From Bacteroidales bacterium (lineage in GTDB: Bacteria > Bacteroidota > Bacteroidia > Bacteroidales > F082), in NCBI GenBank assembly GCA_017538795.1, contig JAFYIE010000010.1, positions 1 through 59,100 on the forward strand: a stretch of 59,100 nt of DNA. The letters run 5' to 3'. Position numbers and translations under genes: made by a program. How positions within the stretch are numbered: position 1 is the stretch's first letter; each line of letters begins with the position of its first letter. This document shows positions 192-55,139 of this stretch, in pieces. Under the pieces are notes generated by a model. The model was given only the letters and a program-made list of their open reading frames with translations, was not told where the DNA came from and made no database searches.

Positions 192-1277
192 ATGGGAGAA
201 TTAAAACTGATGAAGGGTAACGAGGCATTGGCAGAAGCCGCCATCCGCTACGGCGCTGATGCTTATTTCGGATATCCTATCACCCCTCAGTCAGAGGTGA
301 TCGAGTATCTGTCGGAACAGAACCCTTATGAACGTACCGGTATGGTCGTTCTTCAAGCTGAAAGTGAATTGGCAGCCATCAACATGGTTTACGGAGCTGG
401 CGCATCAGGCAAGCGCGTCATGACCTCATCATCAAGCCCTGGAGTGTGCTTGAAACAGGAAGGTCTGGCATACATCGCAGGCGCTGAGATTCCTTGCGTC
501 TTCGCTGACGTCGTCCGCGGCGGCCCGGGTCTTGGTACAATCCAGCCATCACAGGCCGACTATTTCCAGAACACCAAAGGCGGTGGCAACGGTGACTACC
601 GTAACCTCGTACTCGCTCCGGCATCAGTGCAGGAGATGTGCGACTTCGTGGCACTCGGCTTCGACTTGGCATTCAAATATCGTATGGCAGCATGTATCCT
701 CTCTGACGGTGCTATCGGCCAGATGATGGAGAAGGTCGTCCTTCCGGAACAGAAGCCACGTATGACCGACGAGGAAATCAAGGCTAAATATCCTTGGGCT
801 ATCAACGGCCGCAAGAACGGCACACAACACCGCATCATCACCTCTTTGGACCTCGATTCAGCAAAGATGGAAGAGCACAACATCCATCTCCAGAAGAAAT
901 ACAAAGAGATCGAAGAGAAAGAAGTCCGTTACGAAATGATTAACTGCGACGATGCAGAATACGTATTCGTAGCTTACGGCTCAAGCGCACGTATCGCTCA
1001 GAAGTCAGTGCAGCTCGGCCGCGAGGCAGGATTGAAAGTCGGTTTGCTCCGTCCTATCACCCTCTGGCCTTACCCAACAAAGGCTATCGACGCTCTCATC
1101 AAGAAAGGCGTCAAGGGATTCTTATCAGTAGAGTTAAGCTGCGGTCAGATGATCGAAGACGTTCGTTTGGCTTGCAACGGTCGTGTCAAGGCTGAGCACT
1201 TCGGCCGCGTCGGTGGTATCATCCACACACCAGAGGAAGTTCTCGAAGCTATGAAGAAACAAATTATAGGAGAATAA
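192..1277 (+). CDS. vorB: 2-oxoacid:ferredoxin oxidoreductase, alpha subunit (VorB-like)
   Basis: 361 residues. It carries the pyrimidine-binding half of the thiamine-diphosphate site, with GYPITPQSEV near residues 27-36 and the N-terminal LMKGNEA signature of VorB-type alpha subunits (2-oxoisovalerate or 2-oxoglutarate:ferredoxin oxidoreductase). Known family chemistry is oxidative decarboxylation of a 2-oxoacid to an acyl-CoA with reduction of ferredoxin, as in anaerobic amino acid fermentation. The chain ends in a C-terminal core domain resembling the transketolase C-terminal region. The beta subunit starts 4 nt after the stop, so translation is probably coupled. Substrate (branched-chain 2-oxoacid versus 2-oxoglutarate) cannot be fixed from sequence alone. 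Confidence 0.92.
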   Translation: MGELKLMKGNEALAEAAIRYGADAYFGYPITPQSEVIEYLSEQNPYERTGMVVLQAESELAAINMVYGAGASGKRVMTSSSSPGVCLKQEGLAYIAGAEIPCVFADVVRGGPGLGTIQPSQADYFQNTKGGGNGDYRNLVLAPASVQEMCDFVALGFDLAFKYRMAACILSDGAIGQMMEKVVLPEQKPRMTDEEIKAKYPWAINGRKNGTQHRIITSLDLDSAKMEEHNIHLQKKYKEIEEKEVRYEMINCDDAEYVFVAYGSSARIAQKSVQLGREAGLKVGLLRPITLWPYPTKAIDALIKKGVKGFLSVELSCGQMIEDVRLACNGRVKAEHFGRVGGIIHTPEEVLEAMKKQIIGE

Positions 1278-1281
1278 GAAA

Positions 1282-2097
1282 ATGACAGTACAAGATATTA
1301 TCAAACCTGAAAACTTAGTATATCAGAAATCTAAGTTATTGACCAACAAGCCTTTCCACTATTGCCCAGGCTGCGGTCACGGCACTGTCCACCGTATCAT
1401 CGCTGAGGTTCTTGAAGAACTTGGCGTTGGCGACAAAACCATCGGCGTTTCTCCAGTAGGTTGCGCCGTTATGGCATACGACTACTTCGACGTTGACTTC
1501 GCCGAGGCAGCACACGGCCGCGCACCGGCGGTCGCGACAGGTATCAAACGTGTATGGCCTGACAAAGTCGTGTTCTCCTATCAGGGCGACGGTGACTTGG
1601 CGGCTATCGGTACTTGCGAGACAATCCACACATGCAACCGTGGCGAGAACATCACCATGATTTTCGTGAACAACGGTATCTATGGTATGACAGGTGGCCA
1701 GATGGCTCCTACCACACTCGAAGGCATGAAGACTGCAACAACACCTTACGGTCGTAAGGCTACATTACCTGCAGGCGCTGGCTTCGACGGTATCCCAAAC
1801 AACGGTTATCCACTCCACATCACCGAATTGATTGCACGTCTTCCTGGCACAAAATACGTGACACGTCAGGCTGTTTATGATCCTGCACACGTACGCAACG
1901 CCAAGAAAGCTATCAAGAAGGCTTTTGAAAATCAGATTAACGGAAAGAGCGGCGTCAACTTCGTCGAAATCGTATCGAACTGCAACTCCAACTGGAAGAT
2001 GGAACCTGTCGCAGCTAACAAATGGTTGGTTGAGAACATGCTTCCTGAATATCCGCTTGGCGATATCAAAGTCGATGGAAAGCTCGTTGAAAAATAA
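1282..2097 (+). CDS. 2-oxoacid:ferredoxin oxidoreductase, beta subunit (TPP-binding)
   Basis: 271 residues. It holds the pyrophosphate-binding half of the thiamine-diphosphate site: CPGCGHGT near residues 28-35, the GDGDLA motif near residue 99 and NNGIYGMTGG near residue 131, which together bind Mg-TPP. It pairs with the alpha subunit encoded immediately upstream to form the catalytic core. Conserved cysteines in CPGCG and further on (CNRG, VSNCNSN) are in the positions expected for the beta-subunit 4Fe-4S cluster of KOR-type enzymes. Length is normal for the short beta subunits of four-subunit complexes. Confidence 0.92.
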   Translation: MTVQDIIKPENLVYQKSKLLTNKPFHYCPGCGHGTVHRIIAEVLEELGVGDKTIGVSPVGCAVMAYDYFDVDFAEAAHGRAPAVATGIKRVWPDKVVFSYQGDGDLAAIGTCETIHTCNRGENITMIFVNNGIYGMTGGQMAPTTLEGMKTATTPYGRKATLPAGAGFDGIPNNGYPLHITELIARLPGTKYVTRQAVYDPAHVRNAKKAIKKAFENQINGKSGVNFVEIVSNCNSNWKMEPVAANKWLVENMLPEYPLGDIKVDGKLVEK

Positions 2098-2114
2098 TTT
2101 AAAAAATTAAAGCA

Positions 2115-2657
2115 ATGACAGAAGAAATTATTATTGCCGGATTCGGCGGACAGGGTGTCTTATCAATGGGTAAGATCCTTGCATATAGCGGCATCATGGA
2201 AGGCAAAGAAGTGAGCTGGATGCCATCATACGGTCCTGAGATGCGTGGTGGTACCGCCAACGTGACTGTCATCGTCAGCGATGAACGCGTGTGCTCTCCT
2301 ATCATCAACGCATTCGACACAGCAGTGATTTTGAACCAGCAGTCACTCGACAAGTTCGAATCGAAAGTAAAACCTGGCGGATACCTTCTCTATGATCCGA
2401 ACGGCATCACAAAGAAGCCTACCCGTAAGGACATCAACATCTACACCATCGAAGGTGCACAGTTGGCATCAGACATGGGTAACAGCAAAGTGTTCAACAT
2501 GATTATCCTCGGCGCATTCTTGAAGCTTCGTCCAATCATCGACGACAAGAACGTTGAAGAGGGTCTTCGCCACAGCTTGCCAGAGCGTGCTCACAAGCTC
2601 ATTCCATTGAACATGGAAGCAGTTAAGGTTGGTAAGGATAATGTGAAAAAGGCGTAA
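2115..2657 (+). CDS. 2-oxoacid:ferredoxin oxidoreductase, gamma subunit
   Basis: 180 residues of the pyruvate/ketoisovalerate oxidoreductase gamma domain. It begins with the glycine-rich GFGGQGVLSMG (residues 9-19) and has the family PSYGPEMRGG segment. In this enzyme class the gamma subunit contributes to CoA binding and subunit contacts. It is the last gene of the ferredoxin-alpha-beta-gamma operon, 17 nt behind the beta subunit, and a strong terminator lies about 45 nt after its stop. Confidence 0.92.
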   Translation: MTEEIIIAGFGGQGVLSMGKILAYSGIMEGKEVSWMPSYGPEMRGGTANVTVIVSDERVCSPIINAFDTAVILNQQSLDKFESKVKPGGYLLYDPNGITKKPTRKDINIYTIEGAQLASDMGNSKVFNMIILGAFLKLRPIIDDKNVEEGLRHSLPERAHKLIPLNMEAVKVGKDNVKKA

Positions 2658-2660
2658 TGA

Positions 2661-2699
2661 GCCATTAAGCCATTAGGTTAATAGCCATTAGCCATTAAA
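2661..2699. repeat. Short degenerate tandem repeat of GCCATTA units
   Basis: Four GCCATTA(A) heptamers, partly spaced by GGTTAATA, fill the gap between the gamma-subunit stop and its terminator. No coding or promoter signal is seen in it. Similar but different short-period arrays occupy other intergenic gaps of this window. Confidence 0.6.
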
Positions 2700-2701
2700 A
2701 T

Positions 2702-2737
2702 GTAGAGCCGTCACAGTGTGGCGGCTCTACGTGTTTT
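2702..2737 (+). terminator. Rho-independent terminator of the oxidoreductase operon
   Basis: GTAGAGCCG (2702-2710) pairs perfectly with CGGCTCTAC (2722-2730). The inner CAC/GTG can extend the stem. GTGTTTTTGT follows. It lies between the operon and the convergent membrane-protein gene and has no T-run on the minus strand, so it mainly serves the plus strand. Confidence 0.85.
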
Positions 2738-2751
2738 TGTCATCATAATTG

Positions 2752-3045
2752 TTATCCCCAATATTCCACAGTGCCAAAGATGGCCAGGGCAAGGAAAAAG
2801 AATTGGATGGCATAACCAATGGCAGTCATAAAACGGCTACCTGCCAGATTCATGCTGCTCTTGATCCAAAACCAACGTGGAGGCACCGTGTCGCCCCAAC
2901 CTACAATGCCGACCACTAGACCGAGAACTGCACTCAATGCACCCACAACAAGTGATGCGGGAGATGGGTCTTCAAGTAGGTATAGTCCACCGAGTATTAT
3001 TGCTATTGGACTAATGAATTGGAATATCCAAAGAAATATTGCCAT
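2752..3045 (-). CDS. Small membrane protein, possible partner or immunity protein of the radical SAM cassette
   Basis: 97 residues, not recognised. It is highly hydrophobic with about three to four predicted membrane segments (roughly residues 3-24, 30-50, 72-92) and polar connecting stretches around EDPSP and GWGDTVPPRW. It starts 30 nt past the terminator that follows the 36-residue peptide gene on the same strand, so read-through could place it in the same transcript. Small multi-span proteins next to ribosomal peptide cassettes are sometimes immunity or export factors; that role is inference from position only. It may equally be an unrelated membrane protein. Confidence 0.65.
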   Translation of the reverse strand: MAIFLWIFQFISPIAIILGGLYLLEDPSPASLVVGALSAVLGLVVGIVGWGDTVPPRWFWIKSSMNLAGSRFMTAIGYAIQFFFLALAIFGTVEYWG

Positions 3046-3074
3046 ATTGTTTCAATTTCATTTCATTATCACTT

Positions 3075-3103
3075 AAAAAGGTGCTGTTTGTTGCAACAGC
3101 ACC
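3075..3103 (-). terminator. Rho-independent terminator after the 36-residue peptide gene
   Basis: On the minus strand GGTGCTGTT and AACAGCACC form a perfect 9-bp stem with a 6-nt loop, followed directly by TTTTT. It sits about 20 nt after the stop of the mini-peptide gene. This supports the peptide gene as a real transcribed end of the radical SAM operon. Confidence 0.85.
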
Positions 3104-3122
3104 ATTACCAAATTTTTGAGGT

Positions 3123-3233
3123 TCAACCTTTTGCCGGACCACCAGCGCATGGTAAACGTCCAGGAGCCTTCTTGCACTTCACGCCTTGTTTTGAGCAACT
3201 TCTCTTGCTCGGTTTTAATTCAACGTCTTTCAT
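3123..3233 (-). CDS. 36-residue Cys/Lys-rich peptide, candidate RiPP precursor
   Basis: A short reading frame, 36 codons from ATG at 3233 to TGA at 3123. It begins MKDVELKPSKR and ends LPCAGGPAKG, with three cysteines (residues 13, 20, 29), about ten Lys/Arg and only two acidic residues. The in-frame upstream stop TAA leaves this ATG as the only start. It lies 48 nt after the radical SAM/SPASM gene on the same strand and is followed at once by a strong terminator, which is what a real last gene of the operon would show. A charged leader and a Cys/Gly/Pro-rich tail fit a precursor modified by the neighbouring enzyme. I do not recognise a named precursor family. Function is inference. Confidence 0.7.
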   Translation of the reverse strand: MKDVELKPSKRSCSKQGVKCKKAPGRLPCAGGPAKG

Positions 3234-3281
3234 TGTGAAACATTTTTTTAATTATTGGAGATTACAGGGTCTCCGTTTGCC

Positions 3282-4817
3282 CTATTGTAAATATTCATGT
3301 TGTATAATATCATCTTTAATCTCAAGAGTATTAATGTAATTCTCAATTGACATACCTTGCAAAATATCCTCGCTATTACGCAATCGCATTACCGTATTGT
3401 ATCGTATTTTTGCCAAATAACAATTATTTTCTCCACCATTTAGATGCTCTCCAGTATCATTGTAATTATTACCTGGGCAGAAATAACAATAATAACAGTA
3501 TTCGTGAGAATAACACTCATTAAAATCTTTTTCCGTGGTGTGCTTCCATTTCCACAAGAAATCATTTTTCTCAATAATTTGTCTGATATTATTCTGCTTG
3601 ACATTTCCCAATATTTTGTGGAAAGAGCAGCAAGGAGTGATGTCGCCATTGGGATTGATGCAGAATGAACTGCTTGCAGCTCCACAAGGAGGAGCATTGA
3701 GAAATTTCCTATCGACAGGACTATCGTCATTCACTTTGTCAATGTTAATGTGCTGTATCACATCTTCGTCAAGCAACACAACAGATAATTGTTCTGGAGT
3801 AAGTCGCAGGTGTTTTGACACACATTTATCACCATCAATGGAATCTGTTAACATTACATCAAATGCAAGTGACGAACCATATTTCCGCACATAGGGTTTC
3901 ACTTCAAAATATGTTTTAAGATTGGTTTGCATTAGAGGACATGCGACATCAATGGGAACCCCCAATTCATGCAGTCTGTCCATAACACTAACAGTGCGTT
4001 GCCAAGAGCCTTTTGTGCGCGTGATCTTGTCATGCACTTCCGGACTGCCACTATAAAGAGAACATTGAACTTTATACGGATAATAAGAAGCAAGGCATTC
4101 TTCTTTTCCGATTAACCCAAGCCCATTGGTATAAACACTAACAGCAACATCTTTTTTATACAGGTAATCGATAATTTGCCATGTATAAGGGTGCATGAAT
4201 GGGTCGCCACCTGTAATAGTGGCTGATGCGAGACCATTGTCACAAAGGTCGTCTATAATACGGTAATAGTCATTAAGTGAAAGTTCCTCAATATCAGAAC
4301 GTCCATTACGTTCACCATCATTTCGCGTAGCCCCTGGATTATAACAATGGATACATTGAGCCTGACAGCGATAGGTAAGTTCAAACATTACATCGACCAA
4401 TGAGACGCAGTCCCTTATGGAATCAGCATAGGCCTGATATGCAGATTGCACTCCATCATTGGATAGCTCTTCAGAATGTGCTCCGATGGTTTGTGGCGAA
4501 TTCATGCCTTTACAATCGTTGCGATAGTTGGCAATCACCTCTTCTGTGATTTCCGTTTCCGAGAGAATTCCCATCGTGCATAACTCATCAAAGAATTTTA
4601 TTATTGACTTAGGTACAATATTACATTTTTTAGACACCTCATCGACTACCACTTTCCCATTATGCCCTGCTGCCAGCACACAACCTATCACTTCTGCACT
4701 CTCTTCTTCATAAAAAAAGTTCTCCCGAGAAAGCAGATTAAACATAATAGCCACACGCTTGTCCGCATTGTATTTGCCACAAGTCCAAGGTGGACGGAAA
4801 TAAATTTCACTACTCAT
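3282..4817 (-). CDS. Radical SAM/SPASM peptide-modifying enzyme candidate
   Basis: 511 residues. Residues about 22-90 resemble the small winged-helix PqqD-like peptide-recognition domain that many RiPP maturases carry at the N terminus. The radical SAM core has CxxxCxxC at C151, C155 and C158 and a GGDP motif at 203-206. The C-terminal SPASM region has clustered cysteines (C378, C386, C396/C397, C435, C441, C444, C447, C466) suited to two auxiliary 4Fe-4S clusters. Known SPASM proteins install crosslinks or epimerise residues in ribosomal peptides. The ATG overlaps the stop of the upstream gene by 4 nt and the candidate substrate follows 48 nt downstream. The gene is more AT-rich than the oxidoreductase operon beside it, consistent with acquisition. 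Confidence 0.88.
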   Translation of the reverse strand: MSSEIYFRPPWTCGKYNADKRVAIMFNLLSRENFFYEEESAEVIGCVLAAGHNGKVVVDEVSKKCNIVPKSIIKFFDELCTMGILSETEITEEVIANYRNDCKGMNSPQTIGAHSEELSNDGVQSAYQAYADSIRDCVSLVDVMFELTYRCQAQCIHCYNPGATRNDGERNGRSDIEELSLNDYYRIIDDLCDNGLASATITGGDPFMHPYTWQIIDYLYKKDVAVSVYTNGLGLIGKEECLASYYPYKVQCSLYSGSPEVHDKITRTKGSWQRTVSVMDRLHELGVPIDVACPLMQTNLKTYFEVKPYVRKYGSSLAFDVMLTDSIDGDKCVSKHLRLTPEQLSVVLLDEDVIQHINIDKVNDDSPVDRKFLNAPPCGAASSSFCINPNGDITPCCSFHKILGNVKQNNIRQIIEKNDFLWKWKHTTEKDFNECYSHEYCYYCYFCPGNNYNDTGEHLNGGENNCYLAKIRYNTVMRLRNSEDILQGMSIENYINTLEIKDDIIQHEYLQ

Positions 4818-5398
4818 AAACTGATATAAACTATGTAAATGTGGTCGGTATCAATATTCTTATCAACAAGTTCTACGCAATCATTGCCGTAGAGTTCTTT
4901 CATTGCAATACGAGCTTTGGAAACATCTTGTATTACCATGAATTTGTAATAATTATCTACATTATCTATGTCGCCTTTGGTCTTTCCATTGCGAAGCCCT
5001 TGCAAATCTTTTTTCAACGCAATCTTTTGAGCAGCCCCGAAACTCTTTTCTCCAACAGGAATATTACACTTTATTTCTGCAATAATTCTACATTCCTTGT
5101 CTTGGACATCAAAGCCGTTAGTATTTGGATGTTGTTCATCGACCTCTTTCCTCATTCTTTCCGCCTGCTCATTATTGACAATGCCCAATCGGCATATTTC
5201 ATCAATAAAACCTAACGTAACCCTTAATGTTATCAAGTTGTTGATGTTGCTGATGGCTTTTTTCATCTCGACAAGGTCGTTGGTTGTAAGACGTTTCAAA
5301 TAGTCTTCACCATTTGTCTTTAATGCCTTATTCCAATAACTATTAAACTTCTCTTCTAGGTCAAGTTGTCGGGAATATCCCAAGTTATTATCTTTCAT
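4814..5398 (-). CDS. PD-(D/E)XK nuclease-like protein linked to the radical SAM enzyme
   Basis: 194 residues, not a named family I recognise. The first 90 residues are helical and charged. A PD-(D/E)XK-like pattern follows: D97 in NGFDVQD, then E108-I-K110 in IIAEIKC, then a helix starting with GAAQKIALKKD, matching the usual D...ExK...Q/K core order. It overlaps the radical SAM start by 4 nt (ATGA), so the two are co-translated. In this cassette it might process nucleic acid, act in regulation, or use the fold for a non-nuclease role. The start is the second of two near-identical start contexts (see 5405-5425). Confidence 0.75.
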   Translation of the reverse strand: MKDNNLGYSRQLDLEEKFNSYWNKALKTNGEDYLKRLTTNDLVEMKKAISNINNLITLRVTLGFIDEICRLGIVNNEQAERMRKEVDEQHPNTNGFDVQDKECRIIAEIKCNIPVGEKSFGAAQKIALKKDLQGLRNGKTKGDIDNVDNYYKFMVIQDVSKARIAMKELYGNDCVELVDKNIDTDHIYIVYISL

Positions 5399-5442
5399 AT
5401 CTTTTTACAATTTATTATCTTTCATTTCTTTTTACAAATTAA
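5388..5442. repeat. Imperfect tandem duplication over the translation start of the 194-residue protein
   Basis: On the minus strand the unit ATGAAAGATAATAA..TTGTAAAAAGA occurs twice in direct succession. The downstream copy contains the real start (MKDNN), and the upstream copy (5405-5425) encodes a six-codon frame MKDNKL ending TAA. The second A-rich ribosome-binding region is therefore part of the repeat. Confidence 0.6.
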
Positions 5443-5505
5443 CACCTTTTTTCCTATTCCTTCGAAGTCCTTGTTGGTCCTTTTAAGTCCGATTTGTCGG
5501 AACAT

Positions 5506-5680
5506 AAAAAAAGCGTGATACTTTTGCATCCGCTTATCGAGGTGTTTGGCATACCTATAGAGACGAGTGTTAAAAGCTCACGCTAACGTGCAACTTCTAG
5601 CATTATCCAATCTCTATACCTGAAAATCGCCAAACTTCCGATAAGATGAATACTGCTAAATGTCTATTTTATGTTTTATC
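5506..5680 (-). ncRNA. Rod-shaped structured RNA (leader or small RNA), element copy 1
   Basis: This fills most of the 330-nt gap at 5399-5731. A 113-nt rod at 5533-5645 folds on the minus strand: CTTATCG/CGATAAG closes the base, GTTTGGC/GCCAAAC and TATAGAGA/TCTCTATA form inner stems, and CACG/CGTG makes an apical hairpin. It lies between a good -33/-7 promoter (5685-5716) and a bulged GC stem followed by seven T (5506-5512). The layout of promoter, long interrupted hairpin and terminator recalls 6S-type and Bacteroidales-1-type RNAs, but I cannot assign a family. It could act as a separate small RNA or as the leader of the radical SAM operon. A homologous rod is at 53645-53757. Confidence 0.6.
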
Positions 5681-5684
5681 GGCG

Positions 5685-5716
5685 CAAAGATAATTAATAT
5701 TTTTGTAATTAACAAA
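5685..5716 (-). promoter_or_regulatory. Bacteroidota-type promoter for the structured RNA and radical SAM cassette
   Basis: On the minus strand TTTG (5713-5716) and TATCTTTG (5685-5692) are separated by 20 nt, matching the TTTG-N19-21-TAnnTTTG consensus of Bacteroidota housekeeping sigma. The expected start site is near 5678. That gives a leader of about 280 nt before the 194-residue protein. Confidence 0.75.
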
Positions 5717-5731
5717 TTTTCTTAAAATTTT

Positions 5732-6835
5732 TCAGTTTTCCTTGTTTATCGCATCATATAAACGAGAATAGATTTCGTTGTATTTGTCATTGTGAATTTT
5801 CTCCCAAGCACTGCGAAATTCACCCCTAGTCGTTGTATCATCGAGCAATGGAGAATCAATTTCCTTTAGCAATGAACGACATATTTTCGACCGTTCAGCA
5901 ACATCGATGTAAAGCTCAGATGGATTTCTACCATTCTCAACATCAACAATCACAGGGTTATACATGCTGTCGATGATATGCTCAGCACGTTCCAAAAGCT
6001 GGTTAAACTCTTTCGAATGGCCATTGGTTTGAGGTTTTAAAAACATCCAAGGCATTAAAGCTATTGCTAAAACAACTGCAATAATAGATATATTAGAGAT
6101 TCGAGATTTACGAGAAAAGGTTTTCTTTATCGCATCAATGCTGGTGAAACGCTTATCTCTGTCTTCTTGAGAACATTTCTTTGCAATATGAAAGTAACGA
6201 TGCGGGAAAATCTCTCTCAAAATCAAGCCGAAAGCATAAATATCCGCTCTGCCGTCGAGTTTAATGCCTCGCTGGAGCTGTTCTGGAGCGGCGTATTTCA
6301 TGGTGCCGGCAGGCTGTTTCAGTATTGCATAATCGTCGGCATCGGAGAGCCCGAAGTCGATAATTTTCACGTTGTTGCCGTTTCGGGTTATCAAGATATT
6401 ACTCGGTTTTAAGTCGCGGTGGATGATTTGCTTGCTGTGGATATATTCAAGCGCATCAACAAGCTGCTCGACGACCTTTTTTCTTGTGGCAACGGAAGGC
6501 TTAGAGGCAAGAAACGCATCCAAAGTAACTCCATCGATGTACTCCATCACGATGCATGGACCAAGTTCGGGGTTCATCTCCTTCGCAAATGACTTCGCTA
6601 TGTTCGGATGGTCGAGCTGAACCATCAGCTCATACTCCTTTTTCAGAAGTTCGAGGTAAACAGCCTGGTTCTGGTATTCGACAGCCAATCCTTTGAGCAT
6701 AAACCATCTGCCTTGGCGTTTTACCTTCATCAACTGGTTAAAACCACGGCTTGAAACGTCTTCATAAACAGATTTTGTATCGTCTTCCGACAAAAACTGT
6801 CCGTTGATAATGCCCGATGTACTGTCGTCGTTCAT
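5732..6835 (-). CDS. Membrane-anchored Ser/Thr protein kinase
   Basis: 367 residues from the ATG at 6835 (MNDDST). A frame extension to 6925 is rejected because its 30 residues are not kinase-like and overlap the divergent promoter region. The kinase domain has the ATP-binding Lys (K48), helix-C Glu (about 67), HRDLKPSN (139-146), DFG (160-162) and APE (183-185); the glycine-rich loop is degenerate. A single membrane segment lies near 249-267, followed by a helical C-terminal domain of about 100 residues, predicted extracytoplasmic. This Hanks-type layout suggests a signal-sensing kinase. It is divergent from the regulator-like protein at 6949-7515, a possible substrate or partner. Confidence 0.9.
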   Translation of the reverse strand: MNDDSTSGIINGQFLSEDDTKSVYEDVSSRGFNQLMKVKRQGRWFMLKGLAVEYQNQAVYLELLKKEYELMVQLDHPNIAKSFAKEMNPELGPCIVMEYIDGVTLDAFLASKPSVATRKKVVEQLVDALEYIHSKQIIHRDLKPSNILITRNGNNVKIIDFGLSDADDYAILKQPAGTMKYAAPEQLQRGIKLDGRADIYAFGLILREIFPHRYFHIAKKCSQEDRDKRFTSIDAIKKTFSRKSRISNISIIAVVLAIALMPWMFLKPQTNGHSKEFNQLLERAEHIIDSMYNPVIVDVENGRNPSELYIDVAERSKICRSLLKEIDSPLLDDTTTRGEFRSAWEKIHNDKYNEIYSRLYDAINKEN

Positions 6836-6948
6836 GATGTTTGTTTTTGCAAAATTATGGATTTTTATTACAAAAAGTGAAAAAAGGATTAAAAAGGACT
6901 GTTTTTTATTTGAAATTTTTCGCATTTTTGCAGTTCAAAACGAGAGTC

Positions 6949-7515
6949 ATGCAAAAAACAAGCCCTGAAATTCTTGAACTGAGAAAGCGCATTGAAGATG
7001 ATGTAAAGCGCAAGATGAAAACTCCAGCTGATTTCATTTTCCTAAGTGGTGCTATTTGGGAGCGGACGCATGAGACCATGAGCCCGACCACGCTGAAACG
7101 CCTTTGGGGCTACATCGATGGTGCTGATACAACACGCAACTGCACGCTAAACATTCTTTCAAAGTTCCTCGGCTTCAATGATTGGGACGATTTTCTTAAA
7201 AACATAGGCCAAGACAACGGTTCTGACTTTGTGAAATCACAACATCTTAAAGTAGAGGATTTATCTATTGGCGATCGTGTTTCTGTGTCGTGGAAACCCA
7301 ATCGTCGCTGCACTTTCCGTTATCTTGGCGATTACAGATTCATCGTTGAAAAAGCAGAAAATTCGAAGCTTAAAGTCGGTAACACTTTCAGCTGCAGCTT
7401 GTTCATCCTCGGAGAACCATTATATCTAAACGATTTGGTACAAGACGACAATCCGCCAGTGGCGTTCGTTGTGGGTAATAAAGATGGTCTAGTAGAACTA
7501 ACGCCTAAGGTCTAA
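6949..7515 (+). CDS. Bacteroidota helical regulator-like protein of unknown function
   Basis: 188 residues from the ATG at 6949 (MQKTSPE). The frame opens earlier, but that part lies over the promoter-like sequence CATTTTTG and is unlikely to be translated. The N-terminal half is helical, with a pattern (FLSGAIWERTHETMSPTTLKRLWGY is the region at about residues 30-54) typical of a Bacteroidota family that behaves like an HTH-type domain. The C-terminal half (from about residue 100) looks like a small beta-barrel with an IGDRVSVSW turn. Function is not known to me. It is divergent from the Ser/Thr kinase, so the pair may be one signalling unit. Confidence 0.75.
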   Translation: MQKTSPEILELRKRIEDDVKRKMKTPADFIFLSGAIWERTHETMSPTTLKRLWGYIDGADTTRNCTLNILSKFLGFNDWDDFLKNIGQDNGSDFVKSQHLKVEDLSIGDRVSVSWKPNRRCTFRYLGDYRFIVEKAENSKLKVGNTFSCSLFILGEPLYLNDLVQDDNPPVAFVVGNKDGLVELTPKV

Positions 7516-10620: not shown

Positions 10621-10662
10621 TTGTAATTTGAAAAATTTCTTATTTTTGCAAAAATTTTAGCA

Positions 10663-11220
10663 ATGCGCACTGTCTGGCAGCTTTTTCTCACGTTTTTCAA
10701 CATCGGGGCGTTCACACTCGGTGGCGGCTATGCCATGCTCGAGATGATTGAGCGTGCCGTCGTCGAAAAGCGCAAGTGGATTGAGAAAGACGAGTTCTGG
10801 GACATGATAACCATCGTGCAGATGCTTCCTGGCGTGTTTGCCGTAAACACCGCGCTCTACACCGGCTACAAAATCAAAGGAATCCGTGGTGCGATAGCAG
10901 CCTGCCTTGGAGCCATCATCCCGTCGATAGTGATAATACTGCTCATCGCCGTGTTTTTCCTCGATTACAAAGACAATCCTGTTATCGAGCGCATCTTCCG
11001 TGGCATCCGTCCGTGCGTGGTGGCGCTCATCCTCTCGCCTTCTGTCAAGATGTTTCTGAACGCAAAGGTGAACTGGAAAACCGCCATCTTCCCCATCGCC
11101 ACCGTCGTTTTGATATATTTCTTCAAGGTGTCGCCGGTTTACATCATCATCGCCACGATAATCGGCAGCGTCAGCTTCGCTTTTTATTCACAAAACCGCT
11201 TAAATAAGTCTAAATCATGA
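10663..11220 (+). CDS. Chromate transporter family protein, first half-size subunit
   Basis: 185 residues, one ChrA-type domain with about five membrane segments. The start has the family pattern FFNIGAFTLGGGYAM followed by a short loop. The fused ChrA carries two such domains in one chain; here two half-size genes overlap by 4 nt (ATGA at 11217-11220), as in short-chain CHR pairs. The transported substrate is not proven to be chromate; in short-chain members it is often unknown. TATTTTTG at 10641-10648 is the likely -7 box. Confidence 0.9.
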   Translation: MRTVWQLFLTFFNIGAFTLGGGYAMLEMIERAVVEKRKWIEKDEFWDMITIVQMLPGVFAVNTALYTGYKIKGIRGAIAACLGAIIPSIVIILLIAVFFLDYKDNPVIERIFRGIRPCVVALILSPSVKMFLNAKVNWKTAIFPIATVVLIYFFKVSPVYIIIATIIGSVSFAFYSQNRLNKSKS

Positions 11221-11756
11221 TATACTTTCAACTGTTTTGGGCTTATTTGAAGATTGGAATCTTCGGTTTCGGCGGCGGCTATGCCATGCTCTCGATGATT
11301 CAGTTTGAAGTCGTGGATCACTACGGCTGGATGACCGTCGAGGAGTTTGCCGACATGGTTGCGCTTTCGCAGATGACGCCCGGACCGGTCTCCATCAACA
11401 TCGCCACTTACATCGGCTATACCGTGGGCGGGATTCTCGGCTCGCTCGTCGCGACAGCAGCAATCGTTTTGCCTTCTCTCCTGATGCTTTATCTCGTTTT
11501 GAAATTCTTGTTCAAACATAAAGACAACTACATCGTAAAAACCACTCTGGCGTCAATGAAACCTGTCATCGCAGGCCTTATCTTCGTGGCCGCTCTCATG
11601 ATGATGAACCCTGTCAGCTTCGCCGACGCGGGACTTCACGGCAGCAACGTCAGCGTGATAATCTGCGCCGTCACCTTCTCCTGCGTGTTTTGGACAAAAA
11701 TAAACCCGATACTATTGATTTTAGCATCGGGTCTTGTAGGATATTTAATCTATTGA
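11217..11756 (+). CDS. Chromate transporter family protein, second half-size subunit
   Basis: 179 residues of the same CHR domain, with FGFGGGYAMLS near residue 18 and SQMTPGPVSINIATYIGY near 57, both family signatures. About five membrane segments, so the two subunits should assemble as an antiparallel pair. Translation is coupled to the first subunit by the ATGA overlap. It ends 1 nt before the convergent acyl-CoA ligase gene, with no intergenic terminator. Confidence 0.9.
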   Translation: MIYFQLFWAYLKIGIFGFGGGYAMLSMIQFEVVDHYGWMTVEEFADMVALSQMTPGPVSINIATYIGYTVGGILGSLVATAAIVLPSLLMLYLVLKFLFKHKDNYIVKTTLASMKPVIAGLIFVAALMMMNPVSFADAGLHGSNVSVIICAVTFSCVFWTKINPILLILASGLVGYLIY

Positions 11757-53645: not shown

Positions 53646-53779
53646 TACTCCGAAATGTGGAAGTTTCAATATGTAGTACCATTAAAAGCTGAAATGCCTG
53701 CGGTTTAACCGTGGGCTTTTTGTTGGTACTATAGGTAATTCCACAACCTCGGAGTAGAACAAAGGTTCGCGGTTTTTTA
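53645..53779 (+). ncRNA. Rod-shaped structured element, copy 2
   Basis: A 113-nt element (53645-53757). CTACTCCGA/TCGGAGTAG form the base, GTGGAA/TTCCAC and AGTACCA/TGGTACT form inner stems, and GCC.GCGGTT/AACCG.GGGC forms the apical hairpin. It aligns end-to-end with copy 1 (5533-5645 minus): same length, shared CTATAGGTA and ACCTCG, and stems that differ by compensatory changes. After both copies comes CAAA[A/G]GT.TC.CG followed by a T-tract. There is no good promoter on either side here, so it may be a remnant, a transposable REP-like element or an RNA made by read-through from hepT. The rest of 53554-53813 holds nothing else recognisable. Confidence 0.6.
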
Positions 53780-53813: not shown

Positions 53814-55139
53814 ATGAAAAAATTATTTACACTAATTATGGGATTAATGCTGTCATGTACTGCATTAGCTCAAAAGACAGTTGCGGTCTATGTAACAGCA
53901 AGTGAAGGAGTCCCACAAGAGACAAAAAGAATTTTAGGAAGTGAACTTGTTGCTGCTATTACAAGAAATCCAGATTATGTGGCGATTGAAAGAACTAATG
54001 AATTTCTATCACAAGTATCACAAGAACAAGGTAGATATAATAATATTGATGACAAGAAATTGTTTGAACTCGGTCAAAAATATGGTGCAAGCAATGTTTG
54101 TGTAGCAGAAATCACCAAATTCGGTGATGAATATTATATCGTTTCTCGTCTTTTGGATATAAAAACCCAAAGAGTTTGGAAAACAGCAAGAAAATCATCC
54201 GAATTAAAGACATTAGGAGAGTTGATGTCTGTCTCTGAAGCGGTGGCAGATGAATTGGTTGGAAATACGAAAGAATTTTCCACGTACGCATATGGCGATA
54301 ATAGCAGCAATCAAAGTTTTATCACAAAGATTGAAAATCGAGATAACTACACCAAAGTTACATTTAAATTTATATCTACTTCACCCACACAATCCATTGG
54401 AATTTATAAGGATACATATATAGAAGATCTAGTGACACATAATAAATATGTATTAAAAGATGTTTCCAACATTAATATTATTGATACAAATAATAAAAAC
54501 TTTAAAATCATAGGCAAAGGAATATGGGAATATTCTCTGTTTTTTGATAGAATTTCAGAAGAAACGAAAAACATAAAGATTATCGAGCCAATCCAGGATG
54601 GTCGGGCGTATATGGATATTGTTCTAAAACCGTATGGGAATGATAATACATTTGTGTTTGAAGATAATACCCAAAAACTTTATGATGAATTAACAAAACA
54701 ATATAGCGGAGAACTTCAACTTGAAGAAGGCAAATATATTGGTGACATAGTAGATGGAAAGCCTAATGGACAAGGTATTATGTATTACAAAGATGATTCT
54801 TACGGTCGAATTAAATATGAGGGAGAGTGGAAAAATGGTGTTATTATTGGTTATGGCGTTATGACATATATAGAAGGCCGATATGAAGGTACTTTAACAA
54901 ATGGGGAACCAAATGGTCAAGGTATATTTTGGTACAATAATGGTGATAAAATGGAAGGTTCATTCATCATGAAAAACAACGTATTAAATGGAAATTGTGT
55001 TTATACCACAAATGACGGTATTGCGATATACAATATAGTTGATGGTAAACCTGATGGAGAAGTCATCTTTAAAACGGCAGATGGGAATGTGCTAAAGGCA
55101 CAGTTTTCTAAAGGAAAGCAAAAAACTGATTGGCGATAA
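53814..55139 (+). CDS. Exported protein with CsgG/TolB-like N-terminal domain and MORN repeats
   Basis: 441 residues. Signal peptide about 1-19 (ends LA/QKTV). Residues 20-150 resemble the CsgG/TolB-like fold of LpoB-type proteins (VAVYVTASEGVPQETKRILG, then YGASNVCVAEITKFGDEYYIVSRLLD). A middle region of about 140 residues has no clear match. The C-terminal 110 residues contain four MORN repeats (YSGELQLEEGKYIGD, YEGEWKNG, YEGTLTNGEPNGQG, MEGSFIM). It is AT-rich and sits between the structured element and the DUF2971 gene. Role unknown; perhaps a periplasmic regulator or scaffold. Confidence 0.75.
   Translation: MKKLFTLIMGLMLSCTALAQKTVAVYVTASEGVPQETKRILGSELVAAITRNPDYVAIERTNEFLSQVSQEQGRYNNIDDKKLFELGQKYGASNVCVAEITKFGDEYYIVSRLLDIKTQRVWKTARKSSELKTLGELMSVSEAVADELVGNTKEFSTYAYGDNSSNQSFITKIENRDNYTKVTFKFISTSPTQSIGIYKDTYIEDLVTHNKYVLKDVSNINIIDTNNKNFKIIGKGIWEYSLFFDRISEETKNIKIIEPIQDGRAYMDIVLKPYGNDNTFVFEDNTQKLYDELTKQYSGELQLEEGKYIGDIVDGKPNGQGIMYYKDDSYGRIKYEGEWKNGVIIGYGVMTYIEGRYEGTLTNGEPNGQGIFWYNNGDKMEGSFIMKNNVLNGNCVYTTNDGIAIYNIVDGKPDGEVIFKTADGNVLKAQFSKGKQKTDWR

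Follow-up and report, generated by a model that had tools for sequence, protein, structure and literature searches.

The 59,100-nucleotide (nt) stretch of Bacteroidales DNA analysed here (the window; one contig, JAFYIE010000010.1, of the 122 that make up the 2.48 Mb assembly GCA_017538795.1) contains a short operon in which a radical S-adenosylmethionine (SAM)/SPASM enzyme is followed by a 36-residue peptide and preceded by a long rod-shaped RNA, raising the question of what the enzyme and peptide make together and what the RNA and the remaining genes have to do with it. A previous interpretation from the sequence alone had placed a promoter, a 113-nt rod RNA, a PD-(D/E)XK-like protein, the enzyme, the peptide and a terminator in this order on one strand, with a 97-residue membrane protein just beyond, and had suggested a cassette for a modified peptide. 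The window sequence and its list of open reading frames (ORFs) bear out this layout, with every element present, in that order, on the minus strand. Comparison with related genomes indicates that the enzyme and the peptide very likely constitute a new family of ribosomally synthesised and post-translationally modified peptides (RiPPs), and that the rod is likely a cis-acting leader.

A radical SAM enzyme and its peptide partner

The enzyme (3282..4817, minus strand; 511 residues), characterised by Pfam and NCBIfam searches, an alignment of 13 homologues and relatives in the PDB, contains a radical SAM domain (PF04055, E 1.2e-16) and a SPASM domain (PF13186, E 1.7e-6), both above the Pfam cut-off. 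The cysteines of its CxxxCxxC motif (C151, C155 and C158), together with C378, C396, C435, C441, C444, C447 and C466, are invariant across the 13 homologues. The PqqD-like N-terminal part proposed previously was not confirmed, there being no Pfam match to it at E≤1 and the six PDB profile matches all starting at position 144 or beyond. Its relatives of solved structure, found by sequence, are SkfB, PqqE, the radical SAM protein 5wgg (which we take to be CteB) and a decarboxylase, to which the profile search adds one more weak match. Among the 25 best NCBIfam models listed, the enzyme falls far under the cut-offs, the top model being AlbA (104.5 bits versus 850), and in a PADLOC scan of ten proteins it matched viperin models (47.2 bits, E 4.8e-13) no more strongly than many other radical SAM models.

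Homologues of the enzyme were found at E≤1e-30 in 17 of 99 genomes of the genus, its own included, and comprise near (92-96% identity, two genomes), intermediate (42-44%, nine genomes) and far (27-29%, six matches) classes, to which RUG153 (locus L025) adds a near homologue at 76%. Searching with the 13-row alignment at a threshold of E≤1e-60 identified seven of the 393 Bacteroidales genomes, of which four belong to other families, and the enzyme search of a class-wide sample of 345 genomes returned the window's own genome only.

The sequence 3' of the enzyme was read in 17 near, intermediate and other-family loci (the window, L025-L036 and L054-L057), which represent at least five Bacteroidales families. 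All 17 encode an ORF of 34-37 residues beginning 11-60 nt after the enzyme; in the window this is the 36-residue ORF at 3123..3233 (minus strand), which starts 48 nt past the enzyme stop codon. Most of these peptides share an MK..EL..S leader followed by a variable Cys-containing core, the window peptide having the leader MKDVELKPS and a core with Cys13, Cys20 and Cys29. Residues M1, K2, E5, L6, S9, S12 and C29 (window numbering) are invariant in an alignment of 13 near and intermediate peptides, which includes both peptides of L025 and omits that of genome G026, identical to the window's. The other-family peptides of L054-L056 retain MK..L and two cysteines, and that of L057 is the most divergent. 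Non-synonymous divergence (pN) was lower than synonymous divergence (pS) in all seven peptide pairs compared, with pS of 0.043-0.496 and pN of 0-0.126 in five close pairs and pS/pN of 0.435/0.160 and 0.707/0.337 in two wider ones. The earlier proposal of a modified peptide is upheld to the extent that recurrence beside the enzyme in every one of these homologous loci, a common leader and purifying selection make the peptide the likely substrate. Because three of the loci (the window, G026 and G122) are very closely related, the full set of 17 does not amount to 17 independent events.

The association does not extend to the six far homologues, none of which has a peptide with the MK..EL..S leader at the corresponding place: L019 has an unrelated 35-residue ORF 13 nt downstream, L011 a 41-residue Cys peptide 395 nt away and L021 a 47-residue Cys peptide upstream of the enzyme. 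The 13 aligned peptides gave only chance-level matches to NCBIfam precursor models (E 0.03 or worse), in agreement with the suggestion of an undescribed RiPP class; the window peptide had no family match in Pfam, and a search of it against phages gave no result. No description of the peptide family or of the rod was found in the mostly open-access literature or in the Rfam 15 scans made.

Locus L025 (9584-10030) encodes two peptide copies separated by what is left, at its start and its end, of a second enzyme gene; judged by these remnants it is a duplicated enzyme-peptide unit whose second enzyme has apparently been lost. In L035 and L036 the enzyme has fewer cysteines in the SPASM region and the peptide has a single one, and this loss in both suggests a joint change of enzyme and substrate.

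The pair resembles the SPASM thioether maturases of sactipeptides and ranthipeptides (SkfB 6efn, AlbA, 5wgg) in having radical SAM and SPASM domains and an adjacent Cys peptide, but differs from them in scoring far under the listed NCBIfam cut-offs, in showing no ATP-binding cassette (ABC) exporter and in the varying number of cysteines.

Neighbouring genes and the question of export

The neighbour set consisted of 132 ORFs of at least 80 residues within 4.5 kb of the 17 enzyme genes, with kinases and regulators set aside, and neighbour families were taken as the 25 most frequent of 101 (Pfam) and of 376 (NCBIfam). By motif, full ABC ATPases are limited in this set to an ABC-F protein present twice, which the family searches also identify as ABC-F, and no ABC exporter was recognised. 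At least four hydrophobic segments are present in three ORFs, one each in L029, L055 and L056, and ORFs with an HExxH motif occur in seven intermediate loci, namely L028 and L029 (one cluster) and L030-L034 (cluster c4). In the near loci none of these motifs was seen beside the enzyme, apart from a distant ABC-F gene. The earlier statement that the cassette has neither transporter nor leader peptidase holds, by motif, for transporters of the ABC type, and is less secure for a peptidase in view of the seven loci with HExxH ORFs.

Cluster c4 is a protein of 278-288 residues encoded after the peptide in eight loci (L030-L034 and L054-L056), the copy in L032 having no Pfam match, and may be a partner or immunity protein. 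It was also considered as a leader peptidase, with an HExxH that is kept in only five of the eight members and absent from three. The L028 and L029 ORFs (961-1749, minus strand, and 10641-11438, plus strand, respectively) encode metallopeptidase-like proteins of 262-265 residues with the motif YHECFHY, 3-4 kb past the enzyme. Two further small proteins occur in these neighbourhoods: cluster c6, a Cys-rich, zinc-ribbon-like protein of 59-61 residues near the enzyme in L028, L032, L034-L036, L054 and L057 (in L032 of the type MxYIPCQCCGKEFP...), and a Pro/Lys-rich ORF of 46-61 residues (..TPNKPxIPEPKKxPLPExPQ..) situated between the peptide and c4 in L032-L034.

These neighbours bear on an alternative in which the peptide is an exported bacteriocin or signal, with an exporter and protease that are encoded elsewhere or are present as unrecognised neighbours. 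The variable Cys core after a conserved leader and the peptide duplication in L025 would fit an antagonistic or signal peptide, the HExxH ORFs of L028, L029 and five of the eight c4 members are possible peptidases, and L055 has a seven-segment membrane protein on the opposite strand. We nevertheless consider this unlikely, given that the ABC-F copies are the only full ABC ATPases recognised by motif, that c4 has lost HExxH in three of eight members and that no NCBIfam leader model matches the 13 aligned peptides, whereas in Bacteroidales RiPP mining, as presented in the available part of PMC10352776, peptidase-containing ABC transporter (PCAT) exporters go with GG-motif leaders. Neither a PCAT exporter nor a GG-motif leader of the kind set out there was seen around the window enzyme family.

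A closer parallel is found in ternary conflict systems (Kaur et al. 2020, PMC7159879), whose FxSxx/SPASM and FtsH-type peptide-processing modules likewise have a radical SAM/SPASM enzyme beside a short peptide predicted to be a modified conflict effector. The loci analysed here differ from those modules, in the portion of that study available, in having no MoxR-vWA core among the 25 most frequent of the 101 neighbour families, a metallopeptidase-like motif that is only sporadic, another peptide motif and a link to a Ser/Thr kinase and a regulator.

A rod-shaped RNA, probably a leader, ahead of many genes

The leader RNA of the window operon (5506..5645, minus strand), supported by folding, a covariance model and covariation, is composed of the 113-nt rod (5645..5533) and an intrinsic terminator hairpin with a U7 run (5532..5506). 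The operon's promoter, TTTG-20 nt-TATCTTTG (5716..5685, minus strand), was recognised from the sequence and conforms to what we take to be the Bacteroidetes-type consensus.

A blastn comparison of the window with a further 33 loci detected the rod in 12 cases, one being the window itself, and a covariance model (R1) was built from 11 rods, among them the window copy, whose 147.1 bits are therefore scored against a model containing it. R1 had matches at E≤0.01 in 65 of the 99 genomes of the genus, at E≤1e-4 in 48 of 393 from Bacteroidales (with eight candidates scored per genome) and in seven of 295 genomes of a class-wide sample, four of these outside Bacteroidales. Seven matches at E≤1 come from the window's own genome, six of them reaching E≤0.0012 and two lying in the window. 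The second window copy (53646-53778, plus strand, 46.4 bits) is located about 36 nt before a 441-residue MORN-repeat ORF (53814-55139). Scans against Rfam 15 covered the window rod, the second copy and four relatives, and gave no match at E≤1 around the first and only sub-threshold matches around the others. Blastn searches of phages and plasmids with one rod gave no result, and two exact-pattern scans of viral contigs gave a single match, inside an ORF, and none, respectively. Several of the Bacteroidales matches lie within about 500 nt of a contig start or end, as expected of a repeated sequence.

The rods analysed further numbered 91: 79 distinct places from 80 fetched (mostly best-scoring), 11 earlier copies and the second window copy, with the cut-short L064 left out. 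The next ORF of at least 60 residues is co-oriented in 86 of them, at a median distance of 63.5 nt. The motif TAnnTTTG is present within 200 nt upstream (at 47-134 nt) of 82 of 90 rods, one rod having too little upstream sequence; the corresponding figures are 10.7% for shuffles and 20 of 90 for the opposite strand. The rod is closed in every minimum-energy fold and all 91 have a fold z-score below -3 relative to shuffles (median -6.1), values that have to be read in the light of the rods having been selected with a structure model. When 85 copies were fitted to the model, pairing extended to 91.1% of cells, against 37-43% for slid partners, and 45 of 46 pairs are changed on both sides, results that are weakened by the fitting of the rod alignments (A7 and A9) to the rod model beforehand. 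The arrangement of promoter, structured leader, terminator and co-oriented gene is that of an attenuator leader.

The genes behind the rods are diverse. Twenty moderate-match loci were read, and a Pfam search of 20 proteins, taken from the window and 15 of these loci, yielded DNA methylases, YhcG nuclease, RmuC, FHA, FtsK, a double-GTPase protein, a VWA protein, a tubulin-like protein, CsgG, PEGA and MORN, with seven proteins having no match. The rods of the window's own genome precede, by eye, three related MORN-bearing genes of the 441-residue type, one lipoprotein-like ORF and one P-loop-like ORF. The idea that the rod belongs to the enzyme cassette was rejected, as it recurs ahead of other genes. 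All 21 genus rods above 110 bits lie 90-9252 nt downstream of a kinase of the type found next to the window operon, on the same strand.

An alternative to a cis-acting leader is that the rods are stand-alone trans-acting small RNAs (sRNAs), paralogous in the manner of FopS, each with its own promoter and terminator and with a downstream gene that is a mere neighbour. Promoter, rod and terminator do form a complete sRNA unit, several rods are present per genome, and a multicopy paralogous sRNA family with its own promoter and intrinsic terminator is known in Bacteroides (FopS, PMC11697453). An independent sRNA gene would not need a co-oriented ORF next to it, however, and the short median distance and shared orientation in 86 of 91 cases count against this view. 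FopS, as far as the accessible part of that report describes it, combines a single-stranded seed at the 5' end with one terminator hairpin, whereas the rod is a long covarying helix ahead of ORFs, closed in 91 of 91 folds. The sRNA alternative is accordingly given a low probability. Still less probable, to the point of being very unlikely, is that the rod functions mainly as DNA, providing a site of recombination or insertion for cargo swapping, with a secondary RNA fold: it flanks exchanged cargo and has several copies near contig ends, but it also has a promoter motif upstream, a U-run downstream and a fixed orientation to the next ORF, and its closing helix varies by compensation with no conservation of sequence.

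An RNA related to the rod may have been sighted earlier as HMP2_1881, a candidate structured RNA of 108 bp, mostly from Bacteroidetes, near radical SAM domains and expressed in faecal samples (PMC8040213), the comparison being one of descriptions in the available part of that source. The riboswitches and leader peptides of B. thetaiotaomicron described in the accessible portion of PMC7366714 include no such rod.

A second pairing between rod and terminator

Evidence for a possible switch within the presumed leader comes from an unfitted alignment of 25 copies, in which RNAalifold reported pairing, with covariation, of the apical strand RGCGTGA with the terminator 3' arm TCACGCY; five other pairs were reported in the same run, and the rod itself was not. 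In this second helix 93.7% of cells are paired versus 30-64% when slid, a contrast reduced by the finding that shuffles already pair 89.1%, and three pairs are changed on both sides versus 1.1 in shuffles, of which seven in 500 reach three. The two classes of terminator arm are matched by their apical strands: seven of the eight copies with a CACGGT arm contain a perfect six-base Watson-Crick partner for it, while a partner for CACGCT occurs in none of the eight, and of 62 copies with a CACGCT arm, 27 have a perfect six-base partner and none has one for CACGGT. Across 56 distinct terminator regions, the duplex with the copy's own partner beats the swapped one in 89.1% of 3080 comparisons, and in the seven distinct members of the CACGGT class the long-range duplex has -14.0 to -18.5 kcal/mol versus -0.4 to -7.5 kcal/mol for the local hairpin.

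Other comparisons did not discriminate. Contiguous apical/arm pairing with G-U allowed reaches at least six bases in 78 of 90 copies and in 73% with swapped arms, and in 28 non-canonical copies a Watson-Crick pairing of at least five bases is found with the own arm in 15 and with the canonical arm in 12, the CACGGT class alone separating among them. An upstream helix competing with the rod received weak support (own mean 8.3 versus 7.2 shuffled). The apical TAGCGTG had also been considered as an RfaH ops element, on what we presume to be the ops sequence; this was dropped because the apical strand shifts to ACCGTG together with its pairing partner. From the pairing patterns, we take the rod and the terminator-arm pairing to be two mutually exclusive folds.

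Kinase, regulator and exchangeable cargo

Immediately upstream of the promoter lies a Ser/Thr kinase gene (5732..6925, minus strand; PF00069, E 2.8e-35), whose product has one hydrophobic segment by eye, and divergent from it a gene for a 188-residue regulator-like protein with homologues in the genus (6949..7515, plus strand). In 13 of the 17 loci a kinase of the same blastp cluster lies no more than 5 kb from the enzyme, and such a kinase (E≤1e-35) is near the enzyme in 11 of 12 genus genomes with a near or intermediate homologue, against a genus background of 95 such matches in 62 of 99 genomes at the same threshold. Homologues of the regulator occur in 66 of 99 genus genomes (E≤1e-8); the protein has no Pfam match and is predicted to bind DNA in a regulatory role. 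The kinases of intermediate loci (in L032 at 1640-3280, plus strand) have a long C-terminal part that presumably resembles the Fibrobacter major paralogous (FISUMP) domain, which is not in the Pfam output.

Related genomes hold other genes in the same place. In G120 the slot, from a kor gene to the same kinase, also begins with the rod, which is followed by a KAP NTPase, an OmpA-like protein and a set of small paralogues, and this cargo ends before a relative of the 97-residue protein (38% identity). Such fillings indicate that the window operon is one of several exchangeable cargoes. In the PADLOC scan, rod-led cargo matched UzuA (E 3.5e-63), a PifA-like KAP protein (1.6e-31) and the nuclease PDC-S26 (6.1e-31), the kinase matched many kinase models and five of the ten proteins matched nothing.

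The PD-(D/E)XK-like protein (4814..5398, minus strand; 194 residues), identified by motif and homologues, appears to be part of this exchangeable cargo. G95, D97, E108, K110 and Q124 are invariant in seven aligned members of its family, and the last four fit a PD-(D/E)XK nuclease, so that the identity proposed previously is suggested by motif; it found no support from libraries or fold, as there was no significant match in Pfam or PDB sequences, no PADLOC match, and an AlphaFold model with a mean predicted local distance difference test score of 43.5, from which no fold is readable. The protein is present in three of the 17 enzyme loci, all in one closely related group (the window, G026 and G122), and absent from 14. 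Homologues are found in nine genus genomes, six of which have no enzyme match at E≤1e-30, and in G084 and G089 the homologue lies about 1.8 kb from the regulator of the same kinase/regulator module, with a relative of the OmpA-like cargo protein after it. This co-occurrence rules out a fixed partner and contradicts the previous view of the protein as a partner replacing the transporter. The refuting observation named with that view, repeated enzyme homologues lacking one of the associated genes, was made for the PD-(D/E)XK-like gene and not for the peptide. That it and the radical SAM enzyme form one system is highly improbable, the 4-nt overlap of their genes, kept in G026 and G122, standing against the 14 enzyme loci that do without it and the six genomes that have it without the enzyme.

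Proposed mechanism and its significance

Taken together, the window feature would be the cargo operon of a kinase/regulator island, in which an attenuator leader precedes an enzyme that modifies a peptide into a conflict effector, a combined reading that we consider moderately probable. Transcription would start at the promoter just behind the kinase gene, and the leader RNA with its rod and terminator would be made first. By pairing its apical strand with the terminator 3' arm instead, the leader would probably choose between stopping at the U-run and reading into the cargo. The pairing of enzyme and peptide is given by comparative genomics; by analogy with SPASM maturases, the enzyme would recognise the MK..EL..S leader of the peptide and cross-link its Cys-containing core. 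The product would probably act inside the cell or via a general export route, an intracellular or conflict role being suggested by the lack of an ABC exporter beside the enzyme and by the anti-phage-type genes in the slot of relatives. For the peptide itself, a conflict or defence function is possible, and on present evidence somewhat doubtful.

Several observations speak against this combined reading. Only three enzyme operons, those of the window, G026 and G122, have the rod in front, and no rod was found at E≤1 before the enzyme in L025 and nine intermediate loci; five of the 91 rods have an opposite ORF next, six are overlapped by an ORF of at least 60 residues, and many rod-led genes are of lipoprotein or envelope type. 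Imposing the second helix raises the folding energy above that of the best fold by a median of 16.9 kcal/mol (76 copies, range 6.6-32.1), so that it would need a factor or co-transcriptional kinetics. No kinase of the cluster was seen at four enzyme loci (L029, L055, L056 and L057, the last at a contig edge). The number of cysteines per peptide ranges from one to four, which makes a single chemistry for all uncertain, a leader peptidase is possible in the seven intermediate loci with HExxH ORFs, and a defence role is a possibility drawn from guilt by association.

A broader and more tentative proposal, which we would put at somewhat less than even, is that the rod represents a new attenuator class across Bacteroidales through which one common cue switches on many unrelated accessory operons together, the intracellular conflict RiPP included. 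The operons so joined might, with the same reservation, comprise restriction-modification and nuclease genes, kinase-linked defence cargo, envelope lipoproteins and the radical SAM RiPP family. If this were true, one RNA switch would connect a large number of accessory and conflict genes in a dominant order of gut bacteria, and the ligand or protein partner of the rod would reveal the cue that arms them. The enzyme-peptide pair would add a RiPP family in which no ABC exporter has been seen and a testable case of an intracellular radical SAM peptide; both it and the rod switch could be tested with small constructs.

Other features of the operon

The 97-residue membrane-type protein (2752..3045, minus strand), recognised by hydrophobic stretches by eye, marks the far edge of the cargo slot. 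Its relatives share 97% identity in G122, 70% in L025, and 48% and 38% in two enzyme-less loci, and like the rod RNA it recurs in other contexts, so that neither proved to be a local part of the cassette as first supposed. The enzyme ORF overlaps that of the PD-(D/E)XK-like protein, and between enzyme and peptide lies a small conserved hairpin, GGAGACCCTGTAATCTCC (3257..3274, minus strand), identified from relatives: it is kept in G026 and G122, and a slightly altered form precedes both L025 peptides. The peptide is followed by an intrinsic terminator (3075..3103, minus strand), evident from sequence and fold, and hairpin-forming sequence is seen by eye 3' of the peptides in several relatives too.

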